Below are positions 4,184 through 42,000 of a stretch of 64,000 nucleotides of DNA, piece after piece. The stretch covers positions 1-64,000 of the forward strand of contig NZ_AKJY01000045.1 in assembly GCF_000282115.1 (NCBI RefSeq), in the 5' to 3' direction. Source of the stretch: Chryseobacterium populi. GTDB taxonomy: Bacteria; Bacteroidota; Bacteroidia; Flavobacteriales; Weeksellaceae. The stretch's first letter is position 1, and each line of letters starts with the position of its first letter. The position numbers were made by a program, and so were the translations under genes. A model generated the notes under the pieces. That model did no database searches. It saw only the letters and a program-made list of their open reading frames with translations, and was not told the origin of the DNA.

Positions 4184-7100
4184 ATGCACCGCTTTTTTAT
4201 ATTTTTATATCATCTGATTTCCAAAAACAGGCTGCTGGCTGTACTGGCTGCAACAGGAATTGCCCTGTTGTGTATTTTTTTTGCTTCAAAAATTAATTTT
4301 GAAGAAGATATCAATCAGATTATTCCTAAAAGCGAAAAATCAGACCTTACGGCGAAAGTTCTTAAACAGCTCAACTTTTCGGATAAGATCATCGTCATCA
4401 TAGAAAATAAATCTGCTGAAAACAATTTTCAGCTTTCTGAAACCGCTGATCGCTTTTTAGAGGAAATTTCACCTCTTCAGAAATATATCAGTTCCGTTCA
4501 GGGCAAAGTAAACGACAATGAAATCTCTGAGACTTTCGATTTTGTCAATCAAAACCTTCCTTTATTTCTGGATGAAAATGATTACCGGGAAATCAGCAGG
4601 AAGCTTCAAAAAGACAGTATTGTAAAGCAGGTAGAAAGCAACTATGTTTCACTGGTATCACCTACCAGTCTTGTAACAAAAGAATTCATTAAAAAAGACC
4701 CGCTTGGATTTACTTTTTTAGGGATAAAAAAACTGAATGCACTCAATATCAGTAAAGATTTCAGGCTTGAAGACAACTACATCGTTACAAAAGACGGCAA
4801 AAACCTTTTACTCTTTATTGATCCCGAGAATAAAAGTAATGATACCAGGAACAATGAAGCTTTTGTAGATAAGCTCAATGGGATAAAAGAAGACATCAAC
4901 AAACAGTTTAAAGGAAAAACAGAAATAAGCTATTTCGGATCTCCGGTCATTGCAGTAGCCAATGCCAAGCAGATAAAAAAAGACATTCAGAATACGGTGA
5001 TTATTTCAATGACAGTGCTTCTGATTCTTTTAATTTATTATTTTAAAAATATCTTTACTCCGCTCATCATTTTTCTGCCTACTGTTTTTTCAGTTTTGCT
5101 GGCACTGCTGATCCTGTATTTTATTAAAGATAAAATTTCCGCCATTTCATTAAGCGTGGGAGCCATTTTAATAGGAATCACCATCGATTACGCCCTGCAT
5201 ATCCTTACCCATTATAAACATAACAACAACATTGAAGAGCTTTATAAAGAGATCACGCAACCGATTATTTTAAGCAGCGCTACCACAGCGGTGTCTTTTC
5301 TCTGCCTGATTTTTGTACGCTCAGAAGCTTTAAAAGATCTTGGACTGTTTGCTTCAATAACCGTTATTTTATCTTCCATATCGGCTTTAATTATTGTACC
5401 TCAGCTTTACCAGCCTAAAGAGAAAGAGGGAAAACCCAATACCAATTTTATTGATAAAATAGGCTCGTATCCTTACGAAAAAAATAAACCTCTGATCATT
5501 GCCTGTTCATTGGTGATCATTGCCTGCCTGTTTGGTTTCAGACATGTAGGTTTCAATGAAGATATCGGAGATTTAAATTATATTCCGAAAGATATAAAGG
5601 TAAGTGAGGCCAAACTTCAGCAACTTTCGGATCTCACTTCAAAATCTATTTATACCATTTCTTATGGTGATTCCGAAGAAGAGGCTTTAGCACGAAATTC
5701 TCAACTGAGCCAGTTTCTGGAAAAAGAAAAGCAGCAGGGAAAAATTTTAAGCTACAACTCGTTGGGAAATGTCGTTTTATCAGAAAAGGATCAGCAGAAA
5801 AAGATTGAAATCTGGAAAAAATTCTGGGATATTCAGAAAAAAAACCAGACTGTTTCCGAATTAATCAGTGCAGGAAATCAATTTGGATTCAACAGTTCTG
5901 CCTTTGCCCAATTCAACGAAACTTTAAACAAAAGCTATCCGACCCTAAGCCTTAAAGACTATGAAAAAGTAAAAGCCCTGCAGGTTTCAGAGTTTTTAAG
6001 TAATGAAAAAGGATTTTACACTGTTTCAAACATCGTAAAAGTAGATGAAAATAAAAGAGACGCTTTCATAAAAGATGTGGAGAAAAAGCATGATGCCCTG
6101 GCAATAGACCGTCAGCAAATGAATGAAAACTTCTTAGGATTATTGAAAAGAGATTTTAATACCCTTATCAATTATTCATTGCTGGCCATTATCCTGACCA
6201 TTATTGTTTTTTTCAGAAACTTTGAACTGACCGTCCTTACCATGTTCCCGATTGTTTTAACGGGAATTGTAACGGCAGGTATTCTCTATTTTCTGGGATT
6301 AGAATTAAATATTTTCAGCACGGTCGTTTGTACGCTGATCTTCGGAGTCGGCGATGATTTCAGTATATTTCTTACGAAAGCCATGCAGAAAGAGCATACG
6401 ACAGGAAAGAACGAACTTCCTACCTATAGAATTTCGATTATTTTGGCAGTTTTCACTACCATCCTTTCGATCGGCTCCTTAATTTTTGCTAAACACCCTG
6501 CATTGCATTCCTTAGCTTTGGTCGCTTTGATAGGAATGTTCTCCGTAATCATTATTACCTCTACCTTATATCCGTTCTGGTTCAGACTTTTAATTATCAA
6601 CCGGGCAAAAAAAGGGCTTTCACCTGTCACATTCAGGTTATTCCTGCGCTCTGTCCTTTCATTTTTATATTATGGCCTGGGCGGACTTTTCTTTTCATTT
6701 TTCGGACATTTCTTTGTCAGAAAGGCCAAAGGAAAAACTTTAGATATCATTAAAAAATGCATCGCCTTATTTTTAAAATCAGTTTTACACCTTACTCCGT
6801 TTGTAAAGAAGACCATCATCAGAAATCCTGAAGAAGATTTCAGCAAACCGTCTGTCATTATTGCCAATCATACTTCTTTCCTGGATACGCTGGCTCTTGC
6901 CATGGCAACCCATAAGATCGTGTATTTAGTCAATGACTGGGTATATGATTCCCCGGTATTCGGAAAACTGGTAAAAGCATTGGGTTTCTTCCCGGTTTCC
7001 CAGGGTATAGAAAATGGGATGTCTCAACTCAAAGAAAAAATAAATGAAGGGTATTCTTTAATGATCTTTCCGGAAGCAGAACGTTCTTATACCAACGATA

Positions 7101-7837
7101 TCAAAAGATTCCATAAAGGAGCTTTCTATATTGCCGAAGAATTTGGTCTTGATGTGGTTCCTGTTTATATACATGGAAATTCAGAAGTACTGCCGAAAGG
7201 AGATTTCGTTATTTATGACGGAAGCATTACGGTAAAAGTCGGAAACAGGATTAATAAAGATGATCTTAAATTCGGGAAAACATATTCCGAAAGAACAAAA
7301 AAGATCAATGCCTATTTCCGGGAAGAATTTGCAAAGCTCAGAAATGAAATTGAAGATGAGAATTATTTCAAGAAGAAACTTTTCTTAAGCTTTCTCTACA
7401 AAGAAACTGGAGTAGTACAGCAGGTAAAAGAAGACTTCAAAACCAATAAATCTGTCTATTTTGAATTAAACAAGCATATTCCTAAAGATGCTACCATTCT
7501 TCATATTGCAGATGATTACGGGCAGACGGACGTTTTACTCACTCTTCAACAGGCAGGCAGAAAAATATTCAGTCTAATTGCCAATCGTGAAAAGAGGGAA
7601 ATTGCAGCACAGAATTATATTGTCAAAAGAAGAAAGATCAATTATATAGAAGATATTTCAGAGCCGGGCAAAGAAATCAATATACTTTTGGTTTCAGATG
7701 AAAGCTACGACATCAGTATGATTCCAAACCTTCCTGAAACGATCATTTTCATGAATATTAAAAATAATTCATTTAACAGTACTGATTATTCATTAGAATT
7801 TAGTTCAGAATCATTAAAAATATTTAAGACTAAATAA
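4184..7837 (+). CDS. MMPL/RND exporter fused to a PlsC-type acyltransferase
   Basis: A 1217-residue fusion. Residues 1 to about 810 form an MMPL/RND-type transporter with two repeats of helix, periplasmic loop and helix bundle; the segment SVGAILIGITIDYALHILTH is the conserved TM4-like region of the first half and IFGVGDDFSIFLTKA its mate in the second. Residues of about 855-1060 are a lysophosphatidate-type acyltransferase with the HX4D catalytic motif NHTSFLD (H896, D901) and FPEAERS (962-968). The last 140 residues (HIADDYGQTDVLL onward) look like a shortened Rossmann/methyltransferase fold. Related MMPL genes occur in aryl polyene clusters. It probably exports, and may acylate, a pigment lipid. 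The first and longest gene of the operon. Confidence 0.85.
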   Translation: MHRFFIFLYHLISKNRLLAVLAATGIALLCIFFASKINFEEDINQIIPKSEKSDLTAKVLKQLNFSDKIIVIIENKSAENNFQLSETADRFLEEISPLQKYISSVQGKVNDNEISETFDFVNQNLPLFLDENDYREISRKLQKDSIVKQVESNYVSLVSPTSLVTKEFIKKDPLGFTFLGIKKLNALNISKDFRLEDNYIVTKDGKNLLLFIDPENKSNDTRNNEAFVDKLNGIKEDINKQFKGKTEISYFGSPVIAVANAKQIKKDIQNTVIISMTVLLILLIYYFKNIFTPLIIFLPTVFSVLLALLILYFIKDKISAISLSVGAILIGITIDYALHILTHYKHNNNIEELYKEITQPIILSSATTAVSFLCLIFVRSEALKDLGLFASITVILSSISALIIVPQLYQPKEKEGKPNTNFIDKIGSYPYEKNKPLIIACSLVIIACLFGFRHVGFNEDIGDLNYIPKDIKVSEAKLQQLSDLTSKSIYTISYGDSEEEALARNSQLSQFLEKEKQQGKILSYNSLGNVVLSEKDQQKKIEIWKKFWDIQKKNQTVSELISAGNQFGFNSSAFAQFNETLNKSYPTLSLKDYEKVKALQVSEFLSNEKGFYTVSNIVKVDENKRDAFIKDVEKKHDALAIDRQQMNENFLGLLKRDFNTLINYSLLAIILTIIVFFRNFELTVLTMFPIVLTGIVTAGILYFLGLELNIFSTVVCTLIFGVGDDFSIFLTKAMQKEHTTGKNELPTYRISIILAVFTTILSIGSLIFAKHPALHSLALVALIGMFSVIIITSTLYPFWFRLLIINRAKKGLSPVTFRLFLRSVLSFLYYGLGGLFFSFFGHFFVRKAKGKTLDIIKKCIALFLKSVLHLTPFVKKTIIRNPEEDFSKPSVIIANHTSFLDTLALAMATHKIVYLVNDWVYDSPVFGKLVKALGFFPVSQGIENGMSQLKEKINEGYSLMIFPEAERSYTNDIKRFHKGAFYIAEEFGLDVVPVYIHGNSEVLPKGDFVIYDGSITVKVGNRINKDDLKFGKTYSERTKKINAYFREEFAKLRNEIEDENYFKKKLFLSFLYKETGVVQQVKEDFKTNKSVYFELNKHIPKDATILHIADDYGQTDVLLTLQQAGRKIFSLIANREKREIAAQNYIVKRRKINYIEDISEPGKEINILLVSDESYDISMIPNLPETIIFMNIKNNSFNSTDYSLEFSSESLKIFKTK

Positions 7838-7879
7838 TAAATATGAAAAGCATATTTTTGTAAACGCTAAAAAATAGTA

Positions 7880-8794
7880 ATGAAAAAAAATATACTGGTT
7901 ATCTATTACTCACAAACCGGACAGCTGGAAGATATTGTGAAGAATGTAGCTAAGCCTTTTGAAGCAAAAAAGGATGAATATGATGTTAGCTATTACAATA
8001 TTCAGTTAAAGGAAGACTTTGCTTTTCCGTGGTCGAGTGATGTTTTTTTCAATACATTCCCGGAATCTTATCTTCAGATTCCAAGTGAAATTCTTCCACC
8101 ACCTGAGGAAGTATTGAGTAAAAAATTTGACCTGATTATATTCGGATACCAGGTTTGGTATTTAACACCATCCATTCCAATCATTTCATTTTTAAAAAGC
8201 AGTTATGCAGATGGCATTTTGAAAGACACACCCGTTGTTACCATCTCCGGAACAAGAAATATGTGGATGCTTTCCCAGGAAAAATTAAAAATCTATCTGA
8301 GAGACCTTAAAGCAAAACTGGTTGGAAATATTGCTTTGGTAGACCGCCATGACAATTATACAAGTGTACTGACCATCCTTCGCTGGATGACAACAGGGCA
8401 AAAAGAAAAATCAGGAATGCTGCCGGCTGCCGGAGTATCTGATGAAGAAATCACCGGATCGGTAAAATATGGAACAATTATTGAAAAATATTTCAGCAAT
8501 AATGATTTAAATACCCTTCAGCCGGAGCTGGTAAAAAACGGAGCCGTCGAAATCAGGCCCTTCCTGGTAAGAGTGGAAAAAGTAGGGAATAAAATTTTCA
8601 CCGTATGGTCAAATCTGATTATAAAGAAAAAAGAGAAGCGACCATTGCTGATAAAATTCTTTAAGGTATATTTGATGGCAGCGATATGGATTATCTCACC
8701 GGTAGTTTTGGTTTTACACCTGCTCACAACACCAATTTTTTGGGTTAAAAGAAAAAAACAGAAAGAATATTTACAAGGAATTAATTTAAAATAG
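7880..8794 (+). CDS. darA: Dialkylresorcinol-forming enzyme DarA
   Basis: A 304-residue protein starting with a flavodoxin-like phosphate-binding strand (NILVIYYSQTGQ, residues 4-15). It matches the DarA family ('dialkylresorcinol condensing enzyme') and ends in a hydrophobic, basic tail (IWIISPVVLVLHLLTTP) that suggests membrane attachment. In the dialkylresorcinol pathway DarA acts with the ketosynthase DarB, forming the aromatic ring after the condensation steps. The darB gene follows one base later (8796), the pairing expected for flexirubin-type loci. TATTTTTG at 7853-7860 may be an internal -7 element. Confidence 0.85.
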   Translation: MKKNILVIYYSQTGQLEDIVKNVAKPFEAKKDEYDVSYYNIQLKEDFAFPWSSDVFFNTFPESYLQIPSEILPPPEEVLSKKFDLIIFGYQVWYLTPSIPIISFLKSSYADGILKDTPVVTISGTRNMWMLSQEKLKIYLRDLKAKLVGNIALVDRHDNYTSVLTILRWMTTGQKEKSGMLPAAGVSDEEITGSVKYGTIIEKYFSNNDLNTLQPELVKNGAVEIRPFLVRVEKVGNKIFTVWSNLIIKKKEKRPLLIKFFKVYLMAAIWIISPVVLVLHLLTTPIFWVKRKKQKEYLQGINLK

Positions 8795-8795
8795 A

Positions 8796-9935
8796 ATGAA
8801 CGACGTATTTATAACAAAAGCATCAACATACCTGCCCAATGAACCGGTTTCTAATGATGAAATGGAAACGTATCTTGGTTATATAAACGGCGCTCCGTCA
8901 AAGGCTAAAGCTATAATTTTAAGAAACAATAAAATTACAACAAGGTATTATGCTTTAGATAAAGAAGGAAACCCAACGCATACCAATGCACAGATCACGG
9001 CAAAAGCCGTAGAAGGACTTTTTGATGAAAATTTCAGAAAAGAAGATATGGAATTATTATCTGTAGGAACCACTTCCCCGGATCAGATCCAGCCTTCCCA
9101 TGCATCTATGGTTCACGGGGAATTAAACGTTGGAAAATCCTTGGCAATTAATACCTCAACAGGTCTTTGTAATTCCGGGATGAATGCCTTGAATTACGGT
9201 TTTCTTTCTGTAAAAGCAGGTGTTCACAAGCATGCAGTGTGTGCAGGATCTGAAAGAATGTCTGCCTGGATGACTGCTGATAAATTTAATCACGAAGCAG
9301 AAAATTTAATCTTATTGGAAGAGAGACCTATCATTGCTTTCAAAAGAGAATTCCTGAGATGGATGCTTTCTGATGGTGCAGGTGCTTTTTTATTAGAAAA
9401 CAAGCCGAGAGAAAATGAAGTTTCTTTAAGGATTGAATTTATTGATTTTTACTCATATTCTCACGAAATTGAAGCCTGTATGTATGCCGGTTGTGAAAAG
9501 CAGGAAGACGGAAGCCTGCAATCATGGGCAGATTATCCGTCAGACGAATGGCTGAAGCAATCTATCTTTGCTTTAAAACAGGATACAAAACTTTTAGATA
9601 AATATATTCTGGTAAAAGGTGCTGAAAGTTTAAGAGCATCTTTTGATAAACACAATCTGGATCCCGAAAAAATAGACCATGTTTTGGCACATATTTCTTC
9701 AGGCTATTTTAAAGAAGGTTTAAAAGACGAATTTGCTAAAAAAGGAATGGATTTCCCTTGGGAAAAATGGTTCTACAATCTTTCTGAAGTCGGAAACATT
9801 GGTGCCGGATCTATTTTCATTGCTTTGGAGCAACTAATGAATTCAGGAAAACTGAAAAAAGGAGAAAAAGTACTTCTTTGTGTTCCCGAAAGTGGAAGAT
9901 TTGCGTATTCTTGTGCATTATTAACGGTTTGCTAA
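8796..9935 (+). CDS. darB: KAS III-type ketosynthase DarB
   Basis: A 379-residue FabH-like enzyme. The likely triad is C125 (in STGLCNSG), H299 (LAHISSG) and N334 (EVGNIGAGS). Although FabH normally makes C-C bonds from acyl-CoA and malonyl-ACP, the neighbour DarA and the family point to DarB, which condenses two fatty-acid-derived beta-keto units to the cyclohexanedione precursor of dialkylresorcinol. The stop codon shares its last base with the start of the next gene, so translation is coupled. The length and all three catalytic residues are intact. Confidence 0.85.
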   Translation: MNDVFITKASTYLPNEPVSNDEMETYLGYINGAPSKAKAIILRNNKITTRYYALDKEGNPTHTNAQITAKAVEGLFDENFRKEDMELLSVGTTSPDQIQPSHASMVHGELNVGKSLAINTSTGLCNSGMNALNYGFLSVKAGVHKHAVCAGSERMSAWMTADKFNHEAENLILLEERPIIAFKREFLRWMLSDGAGAFLLENKPRENEVSLRIEFIDFYSYSHEIEACMYAGCEKQEDGSLQSWADYPSDEWLKQSIFALKQDTKLLDKYILVKGAESLRASFDKHNLDPEKIDHVLAHISSGYFKEGLKDEFAKKGMDFPWEKWFYNLSEVGNIGAGSIFIALEQLMNSGKLKKGEKVLLCVPESGRFAYSCALLTVC

Positions 9936-10366
9936 TGGAAATAAAACTCCCTACATCAGACAAAAATTTTGTAGAAAGCCTTATTCCGCAAAGATTTCCT
10001 TTTGTAATGGTAGATGAAATTTCAGATTATTCTGAAAATCACCTGATATCAGGATTCAAAATACAGGAAGACAATATTTTTGTTCATAACGGAATTTTTC
10101 AGGCTTCCGGATTAATTGAGCATCAGGCTCAGAGCGTAGCTTTACATACCGGATACAAATATTATCTGTTGGGCAAAGAAGCTCCGACCGGATATATTGG
10201 TGCCATTAAATCTTTTGAGACAGAAACCCTGCCAAAAGCCGGAGACCGGGTGACTACCGAAGTTACCATAATCAATGAAGTAATGGGAGTTACATTGGTG
10301 AACATCGTTACTAAAATAGATGATAAAACCATTGCCGGATCCCAGATGAAAACCGTTGTAAAATAA
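9935..10366 (+). CDS. FabZ-like hotdog dehydratase of the pigment pathway
   Basis: A 143-residue single hotdog domain. LIPQRFPFVMVDEI (residues 16-29) matches the FabZ N-terminal signature, and the central helix carries E62 (SGLIEHQAQS), the expected acidic residue. The classical GHFPG histidine is absent; H51 (FVHNGIF) lies close to that site. It should dehydrate 3-hydroxyacyl-ACP intermediates during polyene extension. I chose the ATG at 9935 (TAATG overlap with darB) over an upstream in-frame codon at 9878, because the upstream extension lies within darB and the family motif begins soon after the chosen start. Confidence 0.75.
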   Translation: MEIKLPTSDKNFVESLIPQRFPFVMVDEISDYSENHLISGFKIQEDNIFVHNGIFQASGLIEHQAQSVALHTGYKYYLLGKEAPTGYIGAIKSFETETLPKAGDRVTTEVTIINEVMGVTLVNIVTKIDDKTIAGSQMKTVVK

Positions 10367-10370
10367 ATTA

Positions 10371-10814
10371 ATGGATATAAAGGAAGACCATATCATCAAT
10401 ATACATCAGTTTTTACCCCATCGTACTCCCATGCTGATGGCAGATTACATATTGGAGCTCACCAAAGAAAAAGTGGTTACTTCCTTTGAAATTCTTAAAG
10501 ACAATATTTTCGTTCACCAGAATGAATTCGTTGAAGCTGGACTGATTGAAAATTTAGCCCAGACCTGCTCTTCAATTCTCGGGCAGAGTTTCTTCGAAAA
10601 CCCTGAAGCCGATACCAAAGTAATTGGTTTTATCACCAATATCAAAAAGATTGAAATTTTCGCCTTACCAAAAGTTGGCAATAAAATCATTTCAAAAGCA
10701 TCTCTGATCTCCCAGTACGAAAATATCTGTCATATTTTTTGCGAAACCTTTAATCAGGATGAATTATTAATCAGAGCTGAAATTAATTTGTTTATTCAGG
10801 AAATAAAACAATAA
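10371..10814 (+). CDS. ApeP-like hotdog dehydratase
   Basis: A 147-residue hotdog protein with LPHRTPMLMADYI (residues 15-27), close to the LPHRxPMLLLD signature of aryl-polyene ApeP-type dehydratases, and E60 in the central helix (AGLIENLAQTCSS). Like its upstream neighbour it has FVHQNEF instead of GHFPG, with H49 as the possible catalytic base. The two tandem genes are four bases apart and are paralogues, sharing the pattern D-N-I-F-V-H followed by A-G/S-G-L-I-E. They could act as a heterodimer, as bacterial hotdog dehydratases sometimes do; that is inference. Confidence 0.75.
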   Translation: MDIKEDHIINIHQFLPHRTPMLMADYILELTKEKVVTSFEILKDNIFVHQNEFVEAGLIENLAQTCSSILGQSFFENPEADTKVIGFITNIKKIEIFALPKVGNKIISKASLISQYENICHIFCETFNQDELLIRAEINLFIQEIKQ

Positions 10815-10819
10815 TACGG

Positions 10820-11242
10820 ATGAAAAAGCAAAATCTTCCCCAGGACGAAAGCAATCTGAAGTCAGCAAACATGACAGAAATACTGTATGTGACTGATGAA
10901 AACGATAACTACACCACTGCAAACAGCATCGGATGGGATGCCAAAAAAGCAGCTTTGGATGAATCAATGGCTCTTATCAATGAAAGAATAGAAGAAGCGA
11001 GACAGAATGTTGCCAGCCATATAGTAAGTCCCGTTATTTATTTTATGGAACTGAATAAAATGGATTTAGGTGTACTTGCATCTTACGTAGGAATGTGGCA
11101 ATGGCGGGTAAAAAGACATACTAAACCAAAAATATTTAAAACACTAAGCGATACTGTGCTGAAAAAATATGCAGATGCATTTGGAATCACAGTGGCAGAA
11201 CTAAAAAATTTCGACGGAAAGCAGGAGCAAACATCCTCATGA
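10820..11242 (+). CDS. Small HTH-like protein conserved in the pigment operon (function unknown)
   Basis: A 140-residue soluble protein with no signal peptide. The C-terminal half (about residues 72-132) has the layout of a Cro/XRE helix-turn-helix: a first helix IYFMELNKM, then LGVLASYVGMWQWRVKRH in the place of the HTH, and the closing LKKYADAFGITVAELKNF, which strongly resembles the last helices of HTH_3 domains. The N-terminal half is acidic and may be disordered. It may be a DNA-binding regulator or a structural relative that binds protein. An alternative start is the Met at residue 18. The gene sits between the dehydratase and BtrH-like genes, five bases after the former. Confidence 0.65.
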   Translation: MKKQNLPQDESNLKSANMTEILYVTDENDNYTTANSIGWDAKKAALDESMALINERIEEARQNVASHIVSPVIYFMELNKMDLGVLASYVGMWQWRVKRHTKPKIFKTLSDTVLKKYADAFGITVAELKNFDGKQEQTSS

Positions 11243-11281
11243 TGCATCCCCCTGAATCTCCGGAAAAACAAAAATGTACCG

Positions 11282-12277
11282 ATGAAACTGAACTTTGAAC
11301 ATCACCAGACCGCCCATTGCGAAAACGGTGTTGCCTCCAATTTATTACGCTATAAAGGTTTAAAACTAAGTGAACCTATGATCTTCGGAATCGGATCCGG
11401 ACTATTTTTCGTGTACCTTCCTTTTCTGAAAGTGAATTTCGCTCCCGGATTCAGCTATCGGCCGATGCCCGGAGCTATTTTCAGCAAAGCAGCCAAAAGG
11501 TTGGGAATTAAAATCAAAAGACAAAAATTTTCAAATCCTAAAGATGCGCAGACCGCATTAGAAAGAAATTTAGAAAATAATATACCCACAGGTTTGCAGG
11601 TAGGTGTTTTTAACCTTACTTACTTCCCGGAAGAATACAAATTCCATTTCAATGCCCACAATCTTGTCGTATATGGAAAAGAAGACGGCAGATTTCTGAT
11701 CAGTGATCCTGTCATGGATTATGTGACCTCTCTTTCCGAAGCAGAACTGGAAAAAGTGCGATACGCCAAAGGAGCCCTGCCTCCTAAAGGACATATGTAT
11801 TACCCTATCTATGTTCCTGAAAATGTAGACCTTGAAGGCGCCATCAAAAAAGGAATCCATGATACCTGTAAAAATATGCTGGCTCCTGTTCCGCTTATCG
11901 GAGTAAAAGCAATACGTTGGGTGGCAAAAAGTATCCCCAAATGGGCAGAGAAGAAAGGGACTAAAGTGACCAATCATTATTTAGGACAGCTCATCAGAAT
12001 GCAGGAAGAGATCGGAACCGGCGGTGGCGGTTTCAGATTTATATATGGCGCATTTTTACAGGAAGCCGCAGAAATCCTTAAGAATGATCAGCTCAAAGAA
12101 CTATCCAAAGAAATCACTTCAATCGGAGACCTTTGGAGAGACTTTGCCGTAGATATTGCCCGGGTTTATAAAAACCGGAATTCAAAAAGTAATATTTATC
12201 AGGAACTGTCAAAATCGATGCTTCATCTTGCCGATCTGGAAGAGGCTTTTTATAAAAAACTTAAAAAAGCGATTTAA
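11282..12277 (+). CDS. BtrH N-terminal domain protein, possible ACP-dependent acyltransferase
   Basis: A 331-residue protein with the BtrH_N layout: HCENGVASNLL at the N-terminus (C13), then H126 (FNAHNLVVYG) and D142 (ISDPVMDY), forming a plausible Cys-His-Asp papain-like triad. BtrH in butirosin synthesis moves an acyl group from an ACP to an amino sugar. In this operon, with two ACP genes nearby in the locus, a similar activity could move an aryl-polyene chain from ACP to an acceptor such as the dialkylresorcinol. That role is inference. The C-terminal half is mostly helical and I do not recognise it. The ABC ATPase gene follows one base after its stop. Confidence 0.75.
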   Translation: MKLNFEHHQTAHCENGVASNLLRYKGLKLSEPMIFGIGSGLFFVYLPFLKVNFAPGFSYRPMPGAIFSKAAKRLGIKIKRQKFSNPKDAQTALERNLENNIPTGLQVGVFNLTYFPEEYKFHFNAHNLVVYGKEDGRFLISDPVMDYVTSLSEAELEKVRYAKGALPPKGHMYYPIYVPENVDLEGAIKKGIHDTCKNMLAPVPLIGVKAIRWVAKSIPKWAEKKGTKVTNHYLGQLIRMQEEIGTGGGGFRFIYGAFLQEAAEILKNDQLKELSKEITSIGDLWRDFAVDIARVYKNRNSKSNIYQELSKSMLHLADLEEAFYKKLKKAI

Positions 12278-12278
12278 G

Positions 12279-30326: not shown

Positions 30327-30327
30327 A

Positions 30328-33599: not shown

Positions 33600-33619
33600 A
33601 ACGCAAAGTCCGCAAAGAT
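33600..33619. repeat. Short GCAAAG direct repeat in spacer
   Basis: The spacer 33563-33747 contains ACGCAAAGTCCGCAAAGATT, two GCAAAG units nine bases apart. I recall similar degenerate GCAAAG runs as dispersed intergenic elements in flavobacteria. The rest of the spacer shows no clear promoter. Confidence 0.4.
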
Positions 33620-33747
33620 TCAAATACTAAATGCTTCTTTAAGGGTACAAAGGACCGGCATTCAGCAAAGTAAACCTAATGATCTTAGCTTTCAACACAT
33701 CTTGATGGTTTGAGTTTGTTATTGTTTTCGGGGTAAAATTAGAAAAA

Positions 33748-34632: not shown

Positions 34633-34639
34633 AATTGTA

Positions 34640-34721
34640 GTTTACCAATCTATCAGTATACCAGTGTAATAATGAATTAAATTATTGTTACACTGGTACA
34701 CTGTTCTATTGTTACATTATT
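34640..34721 (-). repeat. Palindromic intergenic repeat, copy B
   Basis: Arms at 34657-34669 and 34688-34700 pair at 12 of 13 positions (core ACCAGTGTAA / TTACACTGGT perfect). On the minus strand it begins AATGTAACAATAG about 25 bases after the ACP stop and contains further RTGTANCA units. It is the same family as copies A and C. Confidence 0.7.
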
Positions 34722-34746
34722 AAAAGAATAAAGTTTTAATCAATAA

Positions 34747-35001
34747 TTATGCGTTTTTGTTAGCAATTTTATTTTCAATCGTTGTATAAAAATCATCAAA
34801 TGTGATCATTTTTTTAAAATCAGCTTCTCCTAATTTCACGCCGAAATTAGATTCAATAATTACAACCATGTCAATATAATCCAGGCTATCTAATCCTAAA
34901 GTGGTTTTAAGGTTGGCTTCATTGCTTATTTCATCACCATCCACTTCAAATTCGTTAACTAAAAAATCATTAACAATGGCAACAATTTTTTCTCTTTCCA
35001 T
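34747..35001 (-). CDS. Acyl carrier protein (second pigment ACP)
   Basis: An 84-residue acidic ACP with S39 in TTLGLDSLDYIDMV as the phosphopantetheine site. I chose the ATG at 35001, four bases after the ketosynthase stop, over a TTG at 35025 that would overlap that gene. It differs from the ACP at 16568 in the helix after the site (YIDMVVIIE versus ALELIVLLD), so the two may serve different enzymes, for example starter loading and elongation. Confidence 0.9.
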   Translation of the reverse strand: MEREKIVAIVNDFLVNEFEVDGDEISNEANLKTTLGLDSLDYIDMVVIIESNFGVKLGEADFKKMITFDDFYTTIENKIANKNA

Positions 35002-35005
35002 GTTT

Positions 35006-36226
35006 TTAATCAAACTTTTTAACAATTAATGCGGAATTGGTTCCCCCAAATCCGAAAGAATTCGACAAAAATACGTCAATTTTTTGACTTTTTGTTTCAG
35101 CGACCAAATTTATCCTTTTCGCCTCTTCATCAGGGTTTTCCAGGTTGATATTCGGAGCCACGAAATCATTCTGCATCATCAGGACAGAATAAATCACCTC
35201 ACTTGCTCCTGCCATCCAGCATTCATGCCCTGTCATTGATTTCGTAGAGCTCACCGGAACTTCACTGCCAAAGATTTCAAAAATAGCCTTGGCTTCATTA
35301 GAATCACCAATCGGTGTGGAAGTCGCATGGGCATTAATATAATCTATATCTTTTGCGGTTAAGCCAGACTGTTTCAAAGCTCTGTCCATTGCTAAGGCCG
35401 GTCCGTCAACATTCGGTGTGGAAATATGCCCGCCATTGGAAGAAAAGCCATAACCTATAATTTCCGCTAAAATCGGCGCTCCTCTTCTTTGTGCAGATTC
35501 CAGGCTTTCAACAATTAGGGTCGCTGCACCTCCACTTGGAATCAATCCGTCTCTTCCGGAGTCAAAAGGTCTCGATGCTTTTTCCGGCTGATCTTCTCTT
35601 ACTGAAAAAACGCCCAGTCCATCGAAGCTTGCCATAGAAAATTTATTGGTTTCCTGAGCCCCGCCACAGATAATCATATCCTGAAGACCGTTTTTAATCA
35701 TCATATGAGCTAGTCCTAAAGAATGAGATCCACTCGCACACGCTGCACTGATGGTAAGATTGATCCCTTTCAGGCTGAATATGGTTGAAAGGTTCATGGT
35801 AACGGTAGAGTTCATCGATTTAAAAATCGCACCCGAGCCCATCAATGTTGTATCTTTTTTTTCTCTCGCAATATCAATTGCTTCAACGACTGCCTGAGAG
35901 ACACTGTCGTTTCCATATAAAATACCCACTTCATGGGCCTCCAGAAAATCCTGTCCGATCTGCGCCTGCTTCAAGGCATCTATGGTAGCAAGGTAAGCAT
36001 ATTCGCTTTCTTCCCCCATGCTTACACGTTGTCTTCTGTTGAGCAAACCTTTTAAATCAGGTTTTGGGACACGTCCCGTTAAGCCCGATCTGTAGCCGAA
36101 CTCTTTTCTTTCTTCATCCAGAACAATTCCAGATTTTCCTTGATACAGGGAATCTTTCACCTCTTCCAGAGAGGTTCCGATGCAGGAATAAATTCCCATT
36201 CCGGTAATTACTACCCTATTTTCCAT
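35006..36226 (-). CDS. FabF-like beta-ketoacyl-ACP synthase
   Basis: A 406-residue ketosynthase with C163 (SAACASGSH), H300 (NAHATSTPIGD) and H334 (MTGHECWMAGASE). It is the full-length, FabF/FabB-like member of the locus, grouped with its own ACP and ketoreductase. In E. coli-type aryl polyene clusters a separate ketosynthase of this kind (ApeR) complements the ApeO/ApeC pair. It may handle the early elongation of the coumaroyl starter. Intact, no odd features. Confidence 0.88.
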   Translation of the reverse strand: MENRVVITGMGIYSCIGTSLEEVKDSLYQGKSGIVLDEERKEFGYRSGLTGRVPKPDLKGLLNRRQRVSMGEESEYAYLATIDALKQAQIGQDFLEAHEVGILYGNDSVSQAVVEAIDIAREKKDTTLMGSGAIFKSMNSTVTMNLSTIFSLKGINLTISAACASGSHSLGLAHMMIKNGLQDMIICGGAQETNKFSMASFDGLGVFSVREDQPEKASRPFDSGRDGLIPSGGAATLIVESLESAQRRGAPILAEIIGYGFSSNGGHISTPNVDGPALAMDRALKQSGLTAKDIDYINAHATSTPIGDSNEAKAIFEIFGSEVPVSSTKSMTGHECWMAGASEVIYSVLMMQNDFVAPNINLENPDEEAKRINLVAETKSQKIDVFLSNSFGFGGTNSALIVKKFD

Positions 36227-36242
36227 TTTTTTATTAATTTAA

Positions 36243-36304
36243 CAATGTAACAATAGTATTAAAGCTAAACCAGCATTGTTACACTGATACATTGATATAT
36301 TATT
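36243..36304 (-). repeat. Palindromic intergenic repeat, copy C
   Basis: Arms CAATGTAACAATA (36243-36255) and CATTGTTACACTG (36274-36286) pair at 11 of 13 positions. On the minus strand it begins directly after the ketoreductase stop, and its first 30 bases agree at 27 of 30 positions with copy A on the plus strand. Both are oriented with their transcripts. Confidence 0.7.
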
Positions 36305-37036
36305 TTAAGAGTAAATTCCACCGTTAATATTGATCACTTCGCCTGTGATGTAAGAAGATTTTTTAGACGCCAAAAACGCAACTAAATCTGCGACTTCTTC
36401 TGCTTCCCCGAATCTGTTGGCGGGAATCATGGCTTTTAATTCATCTTCATTAAACTCCTGGGTCATATCTGTCCTGATGAATCCCGGAGCTACGGCATTT
36501 ACCGTGATGTTTCTTTTAGCAACCTCCTGTGCCAATGCTTTTGTAGCCCCTACTACAGCTCCTTTTGCCGCCGAATAATTGGTTTGCCCGGCAGTTCCCT
36601 TTACCCCGGAAACCGAAACCATATTGATGATTCTGCCGTATTTATTACGCAACAATCTCTGGATAAAGAAATTCGTTACATTGAAAAAACCGTTTAAGCT
36701 TGTGTTGATCACACTGTTCCAGTCTTCACTCTGCATCCACATAAATAAGCCGTCTCTTGTAATTCCGGCATTATTCACAATCACCTCAACAATTGAATCG
36801 GCATTTTTCTCCTGCCATTCCGTTAAAACTTTTTGGGTTTCCTCTGCATTTCCAACATCAAATTTCAGGATTTCCCCGGTGGATCCAAGTTCCTGAACTT
36901 TAGCTAAAGTTTCTTTGGCTGCAGCTTCGTTTGAAGTGTAGTTAATGAGTATGTGATAGTTTTTCTCTTCGGCCAGTTTTATACAGATTGCTCTTCCTAT
37001 TCCTCTTGAGCCTCCTGTTACAATTGCACATTTCAT
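36305..37036 (-). CDS. FabG-like 3-oxoacyl-ACP reductase
   Basis: A 243-residue short-chain dehydrogenase with TGGSRGIG (7-14) for NADPH binding, NNAG (88-91), and the catalytic S141, Y154 and K158 (NYSAAKGA). The final block ITGEVININGGIYS is FabG-like. It is the only ketoreductase in the locus, so it should reduce every beta-keto intermediate of the polyene (ApeQ-like). It lies about 70 bases downstream of the ammonia-lyase gene in the same direction. Confidence 0.9.
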   Translation of the reverse strand: MKCAIVTGGSRGIGRAICIKLAEEKNYHILINYTSNEAAAKETLAKVQELGSTGEILKFDVGNAEETQKVLTEWQEKNADSIVEVIVNNAGITRDGLFMWMQSEDWNSVINTSLNGFFNVTNFFIQRLLRNKYGRIINMVSVSGVKGTAGQTNYSAAKGAVVGATKALAQEVAKRNITVNAVAPGFIRTDMTQEFNEDELKAMIPANRFGEAEEVADLVAFLASKKSSYITGEVININGGIYS

Positions 37037-37105
37037 GTTTTAGTGTTAGTTTTTTTAGTCTGTCGTTTTCCTCCTTATTTATTGACAATCAATTACAGAT
37101 AATAA

Positions 37106-38629
37106 TTACACTGTTTTTAAATATTTTTTCACTTCCTCCAGATAAGGATACATTACCATATCATTGGTGAATGCAGGAATAATTTTTCTTATCTCATCAT
37201 ACAATTCTCTTGTAGAAGATGAAACCTTATCTTTAAACTCAAGATATTCAATCGCCTGAACGATGGTAATGGTTTCAATTGCCAGTACTTCGAAAGCATT
37301 TTCAATTACTTTTCTGCAGATGACTGCAGCATTCGTCCCCATGCTCACAATATCCTGATTATCATTATTATTAGGAATACTGTGTACATACATTGAATTA
37401 GACAGCATCTGGCTTTCCGCTGTTGTAGAAGTCGCTGTAAACTGAACTCCCTGCATCCCGAAATTGAATCCTAATTTACCCAAATTTACAAAAGGGGGCA
37501 AAATTTCATTGATTTTAGCATTCAAAAGGTAATTCAGCTGTCTTTCTGCCAACATGGTCAGCTTGGTAACAACAATTTTCAGCTTATCCATTTCTAATGA
37601 AATATAATCTCCGTGGAAATTCCCACCGTGATAAACATGCCGGTCTTCCACATTGATAATCGGGTTATCGTTGGCCGAATTGATCTCATTTTCAAGAACT
37701 CTTTCAGCATACTCCAATGTATCCAGAACAGGTCCCAGAATCTGCGGGACACATCTTAATGAATAATATTCCTGAACTTTTTCTTTGAATACTTTTTCCT
37801 GTTCTTCAAAATGGGTATAAAGGTGATCTTCTCTTTTTCTGATCAATTTGCTGTCAGATAAATGCGCACGCATTCTTTCTGCAATTTTCTGCTGCCCGTA
37901 ATGTTTTTTGGTCCCGTTCAACGCTTCTGATAAATGGTCATCATAAGCCTGAACAATTTCATTGATTGCACAGGAAAGTTTAATGGATATTTCCGTTAAC
38001 TGATTAGCTTTATATGCATTTACAATTCCAATTCCGGACATTACGGAAGTTCCGTTCATTAAAGCAAGCCCTTCACGGATCTCTACTTTTATCGGCTCTA
38101 AACCTTCTGCTTCAAAAACTTCTTTTGTAGCTTTTCTTTCTCCTTTATAGAATACTTCTCCTTCGCCGATTAAAACCAAAGCAAGGTGAGCCAGCTGAAC
38201 CAAATCACCGCTTGCCCCAACTCCTCCGTGCTCGAAGATCAACGGCGTAACATTCCTGTTGATCAATTCTTTAAGTAAATTAACTACAGTATGATGTACT
38301 CCTGAATTTCCTAATGATAAGGTATTCAGCCTTGCCAGCATACAGGCTTTTACTTCCTGTGCCGGTAGAGGATTTCCAATTCCTGAAGAATGGCTTCTTA
38401 TTAAATTATATTGGAGCTGATGGGTGTCTTCATCACTAATTTTGAATTGTGCCATCGGACCGAAGCCGGTATTCACCCCATATATTACCTTATTCTTCGA
38501 AAATTCTTTCAAAAACTGAAAACTCGCGTCTACTCTGGCTAAAAGCGTATCATCCAGTTCTATTTTTTCATTATTTATGACGATATTCTGAAAATCTTTC
38601 AGTTTTAAAAAGCTATTTATTTTCATCAA
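37106..38629 (-). CDS. Aromatic amino acid ammonia-lyase, probably tyrosine ammonia-lyase
   Basis: A 507-residue lyase with A139-S140-G141 (GVGASGDLVQ) forming the MIO cofactor, Y50 in VIYGVNTGFG and RSHSSG at 78-83 in the substrate-selecting loop. It closely resembles, from memory, the characterised tyrosine ammonia-lyase of Flavobacterium johnsoniae, including NLIRSHSSG. Histidine ammonia-lyase (HutH) also has an SH pair there, but no hut genes lie nearby while flexirubin genes do. It should turn L-tyrosine into 4-coumarate, the starter of the aryl polyene, in the cytoplasm. Confidence 0.88.
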   Translation of the reverse strand: MMKINSFLKLKDFQNIVINNEKIELDDTLLARVDASFQFLKEFSKNKVIYGVNTGFGPMAQFKISDEDTHQLQYNLIRSHSSGIGNPLPAQEVKACMLARLNTLSLGNSGVHHTVVNLLKELINRNVTPLIFEHGGVGASGDLVQLAHLALVLIGEGEVFYKGERKATKEVFEAEGLEPIKVEIREGLALMNGTSVMSGIGIVNAYKANQLTEISIKLSCAINEIVQAYDDHLSEALNGTKKHYGQQKIAERMRAHLSDSKLIRKREDHLYTHFEEQEKVFKEKVQEYYSLRCVPQILGPVLDTLEYAERVLENEINSANDNPIINVEDRHVYHGGNFHGDYISLEMDKLKIVVTKLTMLAERQLNYLLNAKINEILPPFVNLGKLGFNFGMQGVQFTATSTTAESQMLSNSMYVHSIPNNNDNQDIVSMGTNAAVICRKVIENAFEVLAIETITIVQAIEYLEFKDKVSSSTRELYDEIRKIIPAFTNDMVMYPYLEEVKKYLKTV

Positions 38630-38676
38630 TTAAAAGTAATAATATATAATTTTATAAAATATTGATTATTTGTCAC

Positions 38677-38684
38677 TAATTTTG
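38677..38684 (+). promoter_or_regulatory. -7 element for the halogenase-like gene
   Basis: TAATTTTG matches TAnnTTTG and lies about 40 bases before the ATG at 38725. It forms the left arm of the palindrome TAnnTTTGCgGCAAAnnTA. No clear TTTG -33 box is seen at the usual spacing. Confidence 0.55.
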
Positions 38685-38687
38685 CGG

Positions 38688-38695
38688 CAAAGATA
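38688..38695 (-). promoter_or_regulatory. -7 element for the ammonia-lyase operon
   Basis: Minus-strand TATCTTTG matches TAnnTTTG and lies about 60 bases upstream of the ATG at 38629. It faces the plus-strand element, only three bases apart, so the two polymerase footprints should overlap. Confidence 0.55.
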
Positions 38696-38724
38696 GAAGT
38701 TATTATTAAAATAAAAAATCAAAG

Positions 38725-39981
38725 ATGAGCAAAGAATTTGTTGATGTTCTTGTAATCGGTGCCGGACCTTCCGGATGCGTATCTTCCTCATATTTAAAGA
38801 AGAACAACATCAACGTAAAAGTCGTTGAAAAAACAAAATTCCCAAGACTTGTTGTCGGTGAAAGCCTGATTCCCCGTGTAATGGATCATTTTGACGAAGC
38901 CGGGCTTTTCCCTGCGTTGGATAAAATGGGCTTTGAAAAAAAGCTGGGTGCACGTTTTTTAAGAGGCGACGAAGTCTGCATTTTTGATTTCAGTGATAAA
39001 TTCGGTGAAGGATGGGATTGGACGTGGCAGGTACCGAGAGCTGATTTTGATCATACTTTAGCTAATGAAGTCATTAATAAAGGTATCGATCTCGAGTTTG
39101 AAACTGAAGTTATTGACATTAAATTCGATGGGACAGATTCTATCACTACCGTAAAAAATAAAAACGGAAAAATCAAAGAAATTCATGCCAAATTTGTAAT
39201 TGACTCGAGTGGCTACGGAAGGGTTTTACCCCGTCTTCTTGATCTTGAAAAACCATCAAAACTTTCTCCACATTCCGCCATTTTTGCCCATGTAGAAGAT
39301 ATCAACAGAGAAGAAGGAGAAGAAGGAACTTTGATTTCTTTTGATATTATAGAAACTGAAGTATGGCTTTGGGTAATTCCTTTTTCTAACGGAAATACAA
39401 GCGTAGGAATTGTGGGGCCAACAGATTATATAGAAAAATTATCCGAAAACGGAGATCCTGCGGAAGCTTTGAAAAAAGCAATCTCTCTTTCCGATTATTA
39501 TGTAAAACGTTTCGGTGGTGTAGATTTCCTTTTTGAGCCAAAACATCTGAAAGATTATTCCTGTTCGGTTAAAAAATTATTTGGTGACGGATTTGCTTTA
39601 ACAGGAAATGCTTCGGAATTCCTTGACCCCGTTTTCTCATCAGGAATGGCTTTTGCAACCGAATCGGGAATGCTTGCTGCAAAATTAGCTTTAAAGCAAT
39701 TGAACGGTGAGAAAATCGACTGGCAGACAGAGTACACGGATTATATTTTATATGGTGTAGATGTTTTCACTACGTATGTGAAAGAATGGTATACCGGAAA
39801 TCTTCAGGAATTATTTTTCCATCAGCCGGAAAACCCGGACGTAAAGAAAAAAATATGTGCCGTTTTAGCGGGTTACGTCTGGAATAAAGACAATCCGTTT
39901 GTAAAAAAACATGATACTGTAATTAAAAATCTTGCCAACCTGATTAAACTGGAGAAACAGGAACAGCAGAAACAGCAATAA
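38725..39981 (+). CDS. FAD-dependent halogenase-like oxidoreductase
   Basis: A 418-residue flavoprotein: GAGPSG (12-17), the block FPRLVVGESLIP (39-50), a Lys pair at 72-73 ahead of LGARF, and WLWVIP (214-219), which fits the WxWxIP motif of flavin-dependent halogenases. The later GDGFALTGNASEFLDPVFSSG block is the common end of this family. Halogenases of the PltA/CndH kind share these marks, so chlorination of the pigment ring is plausible; a hydroxylase or reductase of the same superfamily is the alternative. Transcribed divergently from the lyase operon, with a terminator right after it. Confidence 0.78.
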   Translation: MSKEFVDVLVIGAGPSGCVSSSYLKKNNINVKVVEKTKFPRLVVGESLIPRVMDHFDEAGLFPALDKMGFEKKLGARFLRGDEVCIFDFSDKFGEGWDWTWQVPRADFDHTLANEVINKGIDLEFETEVIDIKFDGTDSITTVKNKNGKIKEIHAKFVIDSSGYGRVLPRLLDLEKPSKLSPHSAIFAHVEDINREEGEEGTLISFDIIETEVWLWVIPFSNGNTSVGIVGPTDYIEKLSENGDPAEALKKAISLSDYYVKRFGGVDFLFEPKHLKDYSCSVKKLFGDGFALTGNASEFLDPVFSSGMAFATESGMLAAKLALKQLNGEKIDWQTEYTDYILYGVDVFTTYVKEWYTGNLQELFFHQPENPDVKKKICAVLAGYVWNKDNPFVKKHDTVIKNLANLIKLEKQEQQKQQ

Positions 39982-40012
39982 AAAAATGGTCTGAAAATTC
40001 AGACCGTTTTTA
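39981..40012. terminator. Bidirectional terminator
   Basis: GGTCTGAA/TTCAGACC (39988-40005) is a perfect inverted repeat with A-run on the left and GTTTTTATTTT on the right, between the converging halogenase-like and 40015-40617 genes. Confidence 0.8.
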
Positions 40013-40014
40013 TT

Positions 40015-40617
40015 TTATTTTAAATCTCTTTCGATTCTCTGGGCAAGGGTCTTACCTGTTTTAGCAAAACCTTCTCCTACTCTGGTTTCATTATTAAAAT
40101 TACTTCCCCACTGATCTCCCGGAGCATCTACGCTTTCTATGTCACACAGTACCTTTTTAGAATCCGTTTCCACAAAAGTAAGCTGTGTTGTCACTTTTGC
40201 AGGCTGCTTCATAATCCCGGCATCCCAACCCGGATAAATCCATTTTACTTTAACAATAAGAGTATATGGACTTTGTGTATTTTCTTTAAGCTTTGTGTTA
40301 ATATTCTCTTTTGACAAAATTTTATTGAATAACATGATAAATTTGGGATTCCAAAGTTCTTCTTTACTTCTCTCCCATTGTTTTTTCCAGATATCTCCGC
40401 TTCCTTCGGTCTTTTTATTCAGTTCTTCAATTCTTTTTGGAATATATTCTGCTTCAGTATAATTTTCTTTCAACAGCTTCATATCTGTGTAATCAAAAAC
40501 AACATTTACAGTTTCAGTTCCCTTTAAGAATTTTGCATCCCCGCTCTTAATCTTAAATTTTTGAGCAACAACAGTTGTTGACACTGCAAAAAGAATCAAC
40601 AAAAATAATTTTTTCAT
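40015..40617 (-). CDS. Secreted protein of unknown function
   Basis: A 200-residue protein with signal peptide (MKKLFLLILFAVSTTVVAQ). The mature part contains KFKIKSGDAKFLKGTETVNVVFDYTDM at the front and SPYTLIVKVKWIYPGWDAGIMKQPAKV around residue 120, then TQLTFVETDSKKVLC. It looks like one of the soluble periplasmic or surface proteins common in flavobacteria; I do not recognise a named domain. It sits inside the pigment region but may be unrelated. It is probably a single-gene unit. Confidence 0.65.
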   Translation of the reverse strand: MKKLFLLILFAVSTTVVAQKFKIKSGDAKFLKGTETVNVVFDYTDMKLLKENYTEAEYIPKRIEELNKKTEGSGDIWKKQWERSKEELWNPKFIMLFNKILSKENINTKLKENTQSPYTLIVKVKWIYPGWDAGIMKQPAKVTTQLTFVETDSKKVLCDIESVDAPGDQWGSNFNNETRVGEGFAKTGKTLAQRIERDLK

Positions 40618-40637
40618 GGTTTATTTATTTAGGTCCA

Positions 40638-40645
40638 CAAATATA
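40638..40645 (-). promoter_or_regulatory. Possible -7 element for the secreted-protein gene
   Basis: Minus-strand TATATTTG matches TAnnTTTG and lies about 20 bases upstream of the ATG at 40617. No -33 box is clear. Confidence 0.4.
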
Positions 40646-40707
40646 TTAAAAAAGCAATTCAATAGAACTGCCGTATTTTTATTTTTTATTAATATTAAAA
40701 ATCATAT

Positions 40708-42000
40708 TTATCTTAAATCTATAAATGTAACCGGTTTTCTGCTGTTCGGATTGTGAACAATTTTTGCCAGAATATCAAAATCAATAATTTCTATTTTCGG
40801 GCTTACTCTCAATTTGGCGCGAAAATGGTCTCTTACTTCATTTACAAAACCTTCAGATTCGCTGTCTGTACTTAATCTGATGATAATTTCATCCAACCCG
40901 ATTTCATTGGACTGGATAACAATCTGATAGCACCGGATCGAATTGAAATCATTCAGGATATCATTCATTGCGGGCGGATACAGCGTTGTTCCTTTATATT
41001 TGATCATGTGTTGCTTTCTTCCGACCACAGGGCCTAACCGCATTGTATTTCTTCCACATTGGCAGGGCTTATAATGTGCTTTTACAATATCTCCGGTTTT
41101 AAACCTAAGCAAAGGAATCGCTTCAACCCCCAATGTTGTAATGGTCAGCTCTCCGCTTTCACCTTCTTTCACCGGGCTTTCGTTATCATCAAGAATTTCT
41201 GTGATGATTAATTCAGGATGGTGATGGCCTCCGATCTGAAATTCACATTCAGTAAAGGCTGTACTCATTTCTGTAGAAGCATAGGTAGAAAAAAGTTTTA
41301 TGTCCCATTTTTCTTTAATCTTCTGTGAAAGGATATTATCTGTAAAATCCTGGTTTTTGATGCTTTCTCCAATGCAAACAGCGCCATAGACGCTGGAGTT
41401 TTTATAGTCTAATTCATATTTTTCGGCATAGTCGATCATTTTCAGAAGAAAGGAAGGTACCGTAATCAGGTACTTCGGCTGGTATCTGAAAATAGAATCC
41501 CACTGAAGTTCCGGAATTCCCGGTCCCATCCTTACAACACTTGCCCCCATTTTCCTTAAACCTAAAAAATAAGCCAGGCCTGCCATAAATCTTTTATCAA
41601 TTGTTGTAATCATCTGTACAACATCTCCTTTTTGTATGCCGGCACAGGCAAAAGAAATCGCTTCATTGTAGGCAAGTCTTTCAAGATCATTGTCGGACAG
41701 ACCGAAAGTAACGGGATCACCTAACGTTCCTGATGTCGTGCTGTAATCAACAATTTTATCGGGAGTAATACAGAAAAAATCATGATTATATTGCTGCAGG
41801 TCATTTTTTGTGGTTGTAGGGATTTTCCGCAGATCTTCCAAAGTACGGATATCCCCGGTTTTGATATTATTTTCCCTGAACAGCTTCTGGTAAAAAGGGG
41901 AATTACCTTCGAGGTAAGTCAAAAGTTCCTGAAGTTTTTCCTCCTGGAATGTTTTTATTTCCTGAATACCTGCTTTCTCGATTGACGGATGAAATTCCAA
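40708..42000 (-). CDS. Adenylating aryl-acid ligase (phenylacetate-CoA ligase-like)
   Basis: A 430-residue ANL-superfamily ligase. The AMP-binding P-loop is STTSGTLGDPVTFG (87-100), and later blocks such as LLRFKTGDIV and KYKGTTLYPPAMNDIL match phenylacetate-CoA ligases. In the Chitinophaga flexirubin locus a lyase and a ligase start the pathway; this gene should activate 4-coumarate as CoA or ACP ester. It lies apart from the lyase, with two genes between them, and has its own -7 promoter element upstream (42020-42027). Confidence 0.85.
   Translation of the reverse strand: MEFHPSIEKAGIQEIKTFQEEKLQELLTYLEGNSPFYQKLFRENNIKTGDIRTLEDLRKIPTTTKNDLQQYNHDFFCITPDKIVDYSTTSGTLGDPVTFGLSDNDLERLAYNEAISFACAGIQKGDVVQMITTIDKRFMAGLAYFLGLRKMGASVVRMGPGIPELQWDSIFRYQPKYLITVPSFLLKMIDYAEKYELDYKNSSVYGAVCIGESIKNQDFTDNILSQKIKEKWDIKLFSTYASTEMSTAFTECEFQIGGHHHPELIITEILDDNESPVKEGESGELTITTLGVEAIPLLRFKTGDIVKAHYKPCQCGRNTMRLGPVVGRKQHMIKYKGTTLYPPAMNDILNDFNSIRCYQIVIQSNEIGLDEIIIRLSTDSESEGFVNEVRDHFRAKLRVSPKIEIIDFDILAKIVHNPNSRKPVTFIDLR

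Follow-up and report, generated by a model that had tools for sequence, protein, structure and literature searches.

We analysed a 64000-nucleotide stretch of the Chryseobacterium populi genome (contig NZ_AKJY01000045.1, positions 1 to 64,000; hereafter the window) and conclude from its sequence that positions 4184-42000 very probably hold a complete flexirubin locus, in which two modules, one for an aryl polyene and one for a dialkylresorcinol, are joined. Flexirubin is a yellow-orange pigment of the outer membrane and a chemotaxonomic marker of Bacteroidota. Eight window proteins scored above the curated cut-offs of NCBIfam models for flexirubin and Dar families, so chance is not an issue for the identity of the locus. 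In addition, the gene set matches the polyene and dialkylresorcinol clusters that PMC3992019 describes in Chitinophaga pinensis and in Flavobacterium johnsoniae, which supports the flexirubin interpretation already put forward in a preliminary description of this DNA. The present evidence is at the level of gene identities, catalytic residues and co-occurrence, from which we infer each chemical step in this strain. The genes of the locus are as follows (KS, ketosynthase; ACP, acyl carrier protein; DH, hotdog protein; ABC, ATP-binding cassette; FAD, flavin adenine dinucleotide).

4184-7837 (+), MMPL/RND-type exporter fused to an acyltransferase (Pfam MMPL 79.9 bits, Acyltransferase 72.4 bits); homologues in flx loci of other genera
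7880-8794 (+), DarA, flavodoxin-like, predicted to act in dialkylresorcinol formation; adjoins DarB
8796-9935 (+), DarB ketosynthase (NF053539, 629 bits, cut-off 550)
9935-10366 (+), DH1, hotdog half, putatively ApeP-like (weak FabZ match; Glu present, no GHFP)
10371-10814 (+), DH2, second hotdog protein near DarB (weak FabZ match)
10820-11242 (+), DarG (NF053545, 192 bits, cut-off 170)
11282-12277 (+), DarH, BtrH-related acyltransferase, candidate for the ester bond (NF053550, 507 bits, cut-off 300)
12156-13034 (+), ABC transporter ATPase (Pfam ABC_tran); the real start is probably further in
13021-14289 (+), ABC-2 permease (Pfam ABC2_membrane_3)
14366-14791 (+), thioesterase (Pfam 4HBT_2; TIGR00051, 76.8 bits, cut-off 68.7)
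14791-15921 (+), KS1, Cys-His-His intact
15923-16471 (+), KS-like fragment (profile match to 'Ketosynthase' 6kxd_B, E 1e-5)
16568-16825 (+), ACP1 (NF006617, 83 bits, cut-off 70); Ser in 9/9 matching loci
16829-18028 (+), KS2, Cys-His-His intact
18025-19086 (+), chain-length-factor-like KS, without the catalytic Cys
19212-19964 (+), polysaccharide-deacetylase-like protein (sequence match)
19961-20587 (+), LolA2 (NF053544, 257 bits, cut-off 125)
20529-21188 (+), LolB2 (NF053540, 252 bits, cut-off 60)
21196-21801 (+), outer-membrane beta-barrel protein (sequence match)
21806-22186 (+), DH3, hotdog half, putatively ApeI-like (Pfam FabA-like; His present, Glu replaced by Gln)
22183-22665 (+), small conserved operon protein, no family match; homologues in other flx loci
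22670-23842 (+), glycosyltransferase with DUF2062 (sequence match)
30328-32037 (-), C45/AAT-type acyltransferase or hydrolase (NF040521, 233 bits, cut-off 85); 78/80 loci
32024-33562 (-), CrtI/carotenoid-isomerase-like FAD oxidoreductase; 79/80 loci
33748-34632 (-), LpxL-like acyltransferase; 79/80 loci
34747-35025 (-), ACP2, GLDSLD motif; Ser in 86/86 matching loci
35006-36226 (-), KS3, Cys-His-His intact
36305-37036 (-), FlxB ketoreductase (NF053542, 420 bits, cut-off 340)
37106-38629 (-), FlxA tyrosine ammonia-lyase (NF053541, 902 bits, cut-off 700); Gln426
38725-39981 (+), flavin-dependent halogenase-like enzyme, divergent from flxA (Pfam Trp_halogenase, 75 bits, cut-off 21)
40708-42000 (-), FlxY 4-coumarate-CoA ligase (NF053551, 735 bits, cut-off 520)

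The gene frames of the parts listed are full-length open reading frames (ORFs), and they include a polyene set resembling a fatty acid synthase (FAS), made up of KS1, KS2 and KS3, the chain-length factor, two ACPs, FlxB, the hotdog proteins and the thioesterase. Cys-His-His is retained at the active sites of the three ketosynthases, both ACPs carry the phosphopantetheine Ser, FlxB has Tyr and Lys, and FlxA has Ala-Ser-Gly; residue counts for KS1 and KS2 across loci mix orthologues with paralogous ketosynthases of the same loci. FlxA, which is at most 95% identical to the FlxA proteins of Chryseobacterium polytrichastri and other Chryseobacterium, carries Gln at position 426, which is Glu in four HutH-like proteins of other genomes, and tyrosine and phenylalanine ammonia-lyases have been described as having Gln, and histidine ammonia-lyases Glu, at the corresponding position (PMC3992019). 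The best NCBIfam models for FlxB were FlxB and FabG, and no dedicated enoyl reductase was seen in the locus, its single short-chain dehydrogenase/reductase (SDR) being this FlxB/FabG-like protein. Most of the inventory in the preliminary description was confirmed, namely a tyrosine ammonia-lyase, an aryl-acid ligase (FlxY, an acyl-CoA ligase), two ACPs, three active FabF-like ketosynthases, one FabG-like reductase, a thioesterase, DarA and DarB, and two exporters (the MMPL/RND-acyltransferase fusion and the ABC-2 pair at 12156-14289).

In the proposed pathway, whose order of polyene steps is taken from PMC3992019 and from the literature on aryl polyenes, FlxA would deaminate tyrosine to 4-coumarate, FlxY would activate it, and the type II FAS-like set (KS1-3, chain-length factor, two ACPs, FlxB and a heterodimeric DH1/DH3 dehydratase) would extend it to an aryl polyene, to be released by the thioesterase or an acyltransferase. 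DarB would join two fatty-acid-derived units, with DarA helping to form the resorcinol, and the ester would be made by DarH or the C45 enzyme. The RND, ABC, LolA2 and LolB2 proteins would then deliver the finished product to the outer membrane, and the halogenase-like enzyme would most likely chlorinate the polyene ring.

The co-occurrence of the two modules was assessed with FlxA as the reference, which was searched in 246 genomes of the order and 395 of the phylum. This gave 57 FlxA-bearing genomes (50 passing 1e-180 in the order and seven of other orders), and 28 FlxA-negative genomes were hand-picked from the same order; the 57 genomes are related, and counts among them are therefore not independent. 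DarB was found in 48/50 FlxA-bearing genomes as against 0/20 without FlxA, and in 7/7 further FlxA-bearing genomes of other orders, and DarA was found in 54/57. DarA itself gave no NCBIfam match and no match in a single-sequence PDB search, and its profile matches are weak and flavodoxin-like (2mwm 'Putative trp repressor binding protein', E 2.8e-5; 3klb 'Putative Flavoprotein', E 0.073).

Some points weigh against a complete, joined locus. DarA is assigned only from where its gene lies and how well it is conserved, and the fold predicted from its single sequence is poor, with a predicted local distance difference test score (pLDDT) of 50. FlxB also matches the broad SDR model adh_short_C2 of Pfam, which is described as an enoyl-ACP reductase, and two FlxA-bearing genomes (G095 and G183; G and L numbers are our handles for genomes and loci) are without DarB, so that FlxA alone is no proof of flexirubin; DarB is present here. 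These two genomes, together with the observation that flx and dar genes are interleaved only in the dar-bearing Flavobacteriales loci, would fit a locus yielding a free aryl polyene and a separate free dialkylresorcinol with no joined ester. Of the genomes examined outside that group, six (G116, G509, G483, G589, G261 and G455) have DarB far off or on another contig, and two (G469 and G334) have it at the cluster flank. We nevertheless consider separate products very unlikely, as the C. populi modules are intermingled within a single operon-like run, with DH1 between DarB and DH2, and PMC8151938 cites the isolation of a flexirubin-type pigment from a member of Chryseobacterium. That the locus has decayed and makes no pigment appears exceedingly improbable: a genome of the same genus (G088) has darA and darB each in two frames, indicating that loss or sequencing error does occur, but the genes listed here are full-length ORFs and the active-site residues of the ketosynthases, ACPs and lyase are intact.

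With regard to these exceptional genomes, G095 and G183 have FlxA and the halogenase-like gene, and DarB and DarA were both not found; they may possibly make a tyrosine-derived aryl polyene without the resorcinol. G455 has DarB and gave no DarA match. In G088 the split frames lie at C1:3279969-3282020, the flxA and halogenase-like frames are full-length, and the split could possibly reflect either natural dar loss or a sequencing error.

Three hotdog dehydratases had also been proposed. Three hotdog proteins are indeed present (9935, 10371 and 21806), but none has the FabZ GHFP...Glu pair, and a reading of all three as ordinary dehydratases failed on testing. Homologues of DH1 and DH3 were both found in 57/57 FlxA-bearing genomes. 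In alignments with FabZ, DH1 keeps Glu62 in 57/57 and has the GHFP motif in 0/57, the present genome included; His51 is present in the window protein, but this position is His in only 7/57 genomes, and its spacing from the Glu is 11 residues compared with 14 in the FabZ controls. DH3 has His38 in 57/57 and Gln52 at the Glu position, also in 57/57. DH2 has the Glu in 5/5 loci and a nearby His in 0/5, although the window protein does have His (49). As controls, we used six FabZ-type proteins; the five above the fabZ cut-off, from five of the genomes, carry both residues, and the sixth (L272), below the cut-off, is without the GHFP motif. The catalytic residues are complementary between DH1 and DH3, a pattern consistent with one heterodimeric dehydratase resembling ApeI/ApeP. 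The active site of FabZ is built from residues of two subunits, and a DH1/DH3 pair would therefore complete one site. ApeI/ApeP have been reported to be heterodimeric dehydratases with a single active site (PMC8041823), which makes it an established one in aryl polyenes; its extension to flexirubins would here be by sequence alone.

The plus-strand operon-like run spans 4184-23842, from the MMPL/RND-acyltransferase fusion through the glycosyltransferase, and the minus operon (30328-38629) comprises FlxA, FlxB, KS3, ACP2, the LpxL-like acyltransferase (LPLAT), the CrtI-like oxidoreductase and the C45 acyltransferase. Neighbouring loci were counted in the best 80 of 531 relatives, which are hence nearly all of one genus. 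The series FlxY-halogenase-like gene/FlxA-FlxB-KS3-ACP2-LPLAT-CrtI-C45 is complete in 77/80 of these loci (L032 has no C45, L051 no FlxY and L076 covers 7 kb), and the order and strand of the nine genes are contradicted in 0/80. As this layout is shared with the nearest Chryseobacterium loci, and Chryseobacterium clusters have been published (PMC8151938), the earlier view of it as distinctive was rejected. Nor does all of 4184-42000 belong to the pathway, as had been assumed, since 23917-30068 (-) encodes unrelated families of variable presence, namely a dihaem cytochrome and two proteins that carry a C-terminal sorting domain, an M36 peptidase and an FG-GAP/UnbV protein. The loci extend only 10 kb from flxA, and the following counts are thus lower bounds: M36 was seen in at least 22/80 loci, the cytochrome in at least 14/80 and the FG-GAP gene in at least 11/80, and among the queried genes the neighbour of C45 is the glycosyltransferase in at least 36/80. 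The variable insert genes and this adjacency indicate that the junction of the convergent operons is a variable site. Within the insert, the G+C content is raised at 24001-26000 (0.435).

The preliminary description further took the halogenase-like and ligase genes to be separately promoted. In favour of this, the halogenase-like gene diverges from flxA across a 95-bp gap and is followed by a terminator-like hairpin (39982-40011), but promoter matches are at about chance level, with five Bacteroidota-type matches in the window (5.2 expected) and 65 sigma-70-type matches in 23500-43000 (60.1 expected), and the suggestion is thus weakly supported. The ORF at 40015-40617 was rejected as a pathway gene, being found in 66/80 loci at a median identity of 36% and with no family.

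Polyene and dar genes also occur together in relatives from the Flavobacteriaceae. The dar genes directly follow LPLAT in L085, L101 and L102, a single FAD oxidoreductase gene lies between them in L088 and L089, and in stretches reaching far enough (L085, L088, L090 and L102) the dar genes lead into the thioesterase gene and KS1. Other loci (L092, L095, L096, L098 and L103/L261) have LPLAT-DH1-thioesterase-KS1 without dar, with at most single other genes between; in such genomes DarB is distant, on another contig, at the cluster flank or not found, as given above. We infer that the dar module entered a polyene operon around DH1 and that the run was later split in two in Chryseobacterium. The Flavobacteriaceae relatives also have a gene between flxA and flxB that is missing in the window (L085:15010-16131, L087:19277, L089:12829, L101:9688 and L102:11891); in L085, the only one scanned by Pfam, it encodes a WG-repeat protein. 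Elsewhere in the window, a SAM-II riboswitch (55240-55299, minus strand; 63 bits, gathering score 44) lies upstream of a minus-strand ORF (53891-55171).

Several known systems resemble this locus. In F. johnsoniae UW101 the flexirubin cluster is approx. 37 kb, including Fjoh_1078-1089 and darB (Fjoh_1102), and, as here, an aromatic amino acid lyase, darA and darB stand in one cluster with LolA2 and LolB2 (PMC3992019; PMC11885536). In the Flavobacteriaceae relatives examined the run from flxA to LPLAT leads into darA, directly or through one FAD oxidoreductase gene, whereas here two convergent operons are separated by an insert. Chitinophaga pinensis, for which FlxA and FlxY activities have been shown, shares FlxA, FlxB, FlxY, KS, dehydratase, thioesterase, exporter and LolA genes with C. 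populi, but its dar genes are apart from flxA-flxY (PMC3992019). Aryl polyene clusters likewise have a two-protein dehydratase, a KS with a chain-length factor, two ACPs and LolA- and LolB-like proteins, although their starter is 4-hydroxybenzoate (PMC8041823) and here would be tyrosine-derived 4-coumarate. The dialkylresorcinol module is an addition relative to those clusters, and DH1/DH3 are likened to ApeI/ApeP by description. A comparison of four Chryseobacterium genomes has already reported that their flexirubin cluster is conserved and has proposed a pathway (PMC8151938), and, as far as the available text of that source extends, genus, cluster structure and proposed product class agree with ours and no difference was established. 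A survey of 2,680 genomes has described flexirubin clusters as genus-specific (PMC10734526). In the flexirubin literature searched, we found none naming Chryseobacterium together with tyrosine ammonia-lyase.

The halogenase-like gene divergent from flxA was found in 54/57 FlxA-bearing genomes (50/50 of the same order and 4/7 of other orders) and in 0/28 genomes without FlxA (0/20 and 0/8), with thresholds of E 1e-40 for the 50 and 20 genomes and E 1e-20 for the seven and eight. In 46/50 genomes no more than 300 bases separate it from flxA, the exceptions being G143 (1.4 kb), G116 and G183 (approx. 5.6 kb) and G163 (32 kb). Its retention in the DarB-less G095 and G183 points to the polyene side of the pathway. 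Lys73, together with both Trp residues, the Ile and the Pro of WLWVIP (WxWxIP), is invariant in 95/95 matching loci, which encode 93 distinct proteins and include 80 close relatives. Lys73 aligns with a lysine of the flavin-dependent halogenases 5bul/5bva; this lysine is presumably catalytic, and WxWxIP is a motif of such halogenases.

It is a serious possibility, if somewhat short of an even chance, that this protein, instead of being a chlorinase, is some other FAD enzyme, such as a hydroxylase or polyene oxidase, that almost every flexirubin route requires. Among solved structures 3nix, 'Flavoprotein/dehydrogenase', is by far the nearest, scoring 497 bits where the best halogenase reaches 138, the CmlS halogenase model NF033113 is matched at 158 bits, far below its cut-off of 900, and near-universal occurrence (54/57) is unusual for an optional decoration. 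Against this stand the invariant halogenase-aligned lysine and WxWxIP, the three FlxA-bearing genomes without a match and the existence of chlorinated flexirubins (PMC3992019). Within the text seen of the literature on flexirubin halogenation or chlorination, including PMC3992019 and PMC3949708, none was found that assigns the halogenase-like gene.

Ring methylation was also considered, as the C. pinensis flexirubin has a methionine-derived methyl group on the polyene ring (PMC3992019). A Methyltransf_2-family methyltransferase, which would be the ring-methylating enzyme, was found in 9/57 FlxA-bearing genomes (three of the nine proteins were scanned by Pfam) and is near other flx genes in eight, the exception being G116. 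It is absent from C. populi and was found in 0/30 genomes of the bacterial family to which C. populi belongs (C. populi included; 23 of the same genus); the search covered this one enzyme family, and another enzyme could methylate the ring. The missing methyltransferase and the halogenase-like gene together predict an unmethylated, possibly ring-chlorinated flexirubin. More generally, we tentatively propose, at rather less than an even chance, that flexirubin synthesis in Bacteroidota includes a near-obligatory flavin-dependent halogenase, in Flavobacteriales usually encoded beside flxA, which would act on the tyrosine-derived ring and not the resorcinol, since the gene stays in the two DarB-less genomes.

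The locus itself is routine: both its type and its host genus are familiar, and it is another instance of the standard Chryseobacterium flexirubin set. Its useful by-products are a residue-level case, over 57 genomes, for a split ApeI/ApeP-like dehydratase in flexirubin clusters, and a conserved halogenase-like gene, which provides a specific candidate for the chlorination of the ring seen in known flexirubins. If the proposal on this gene is true, flexirubins that are chlorinated and unmethylated would be expected from Chryseobacterium and other genera that lack the methyltransferase.

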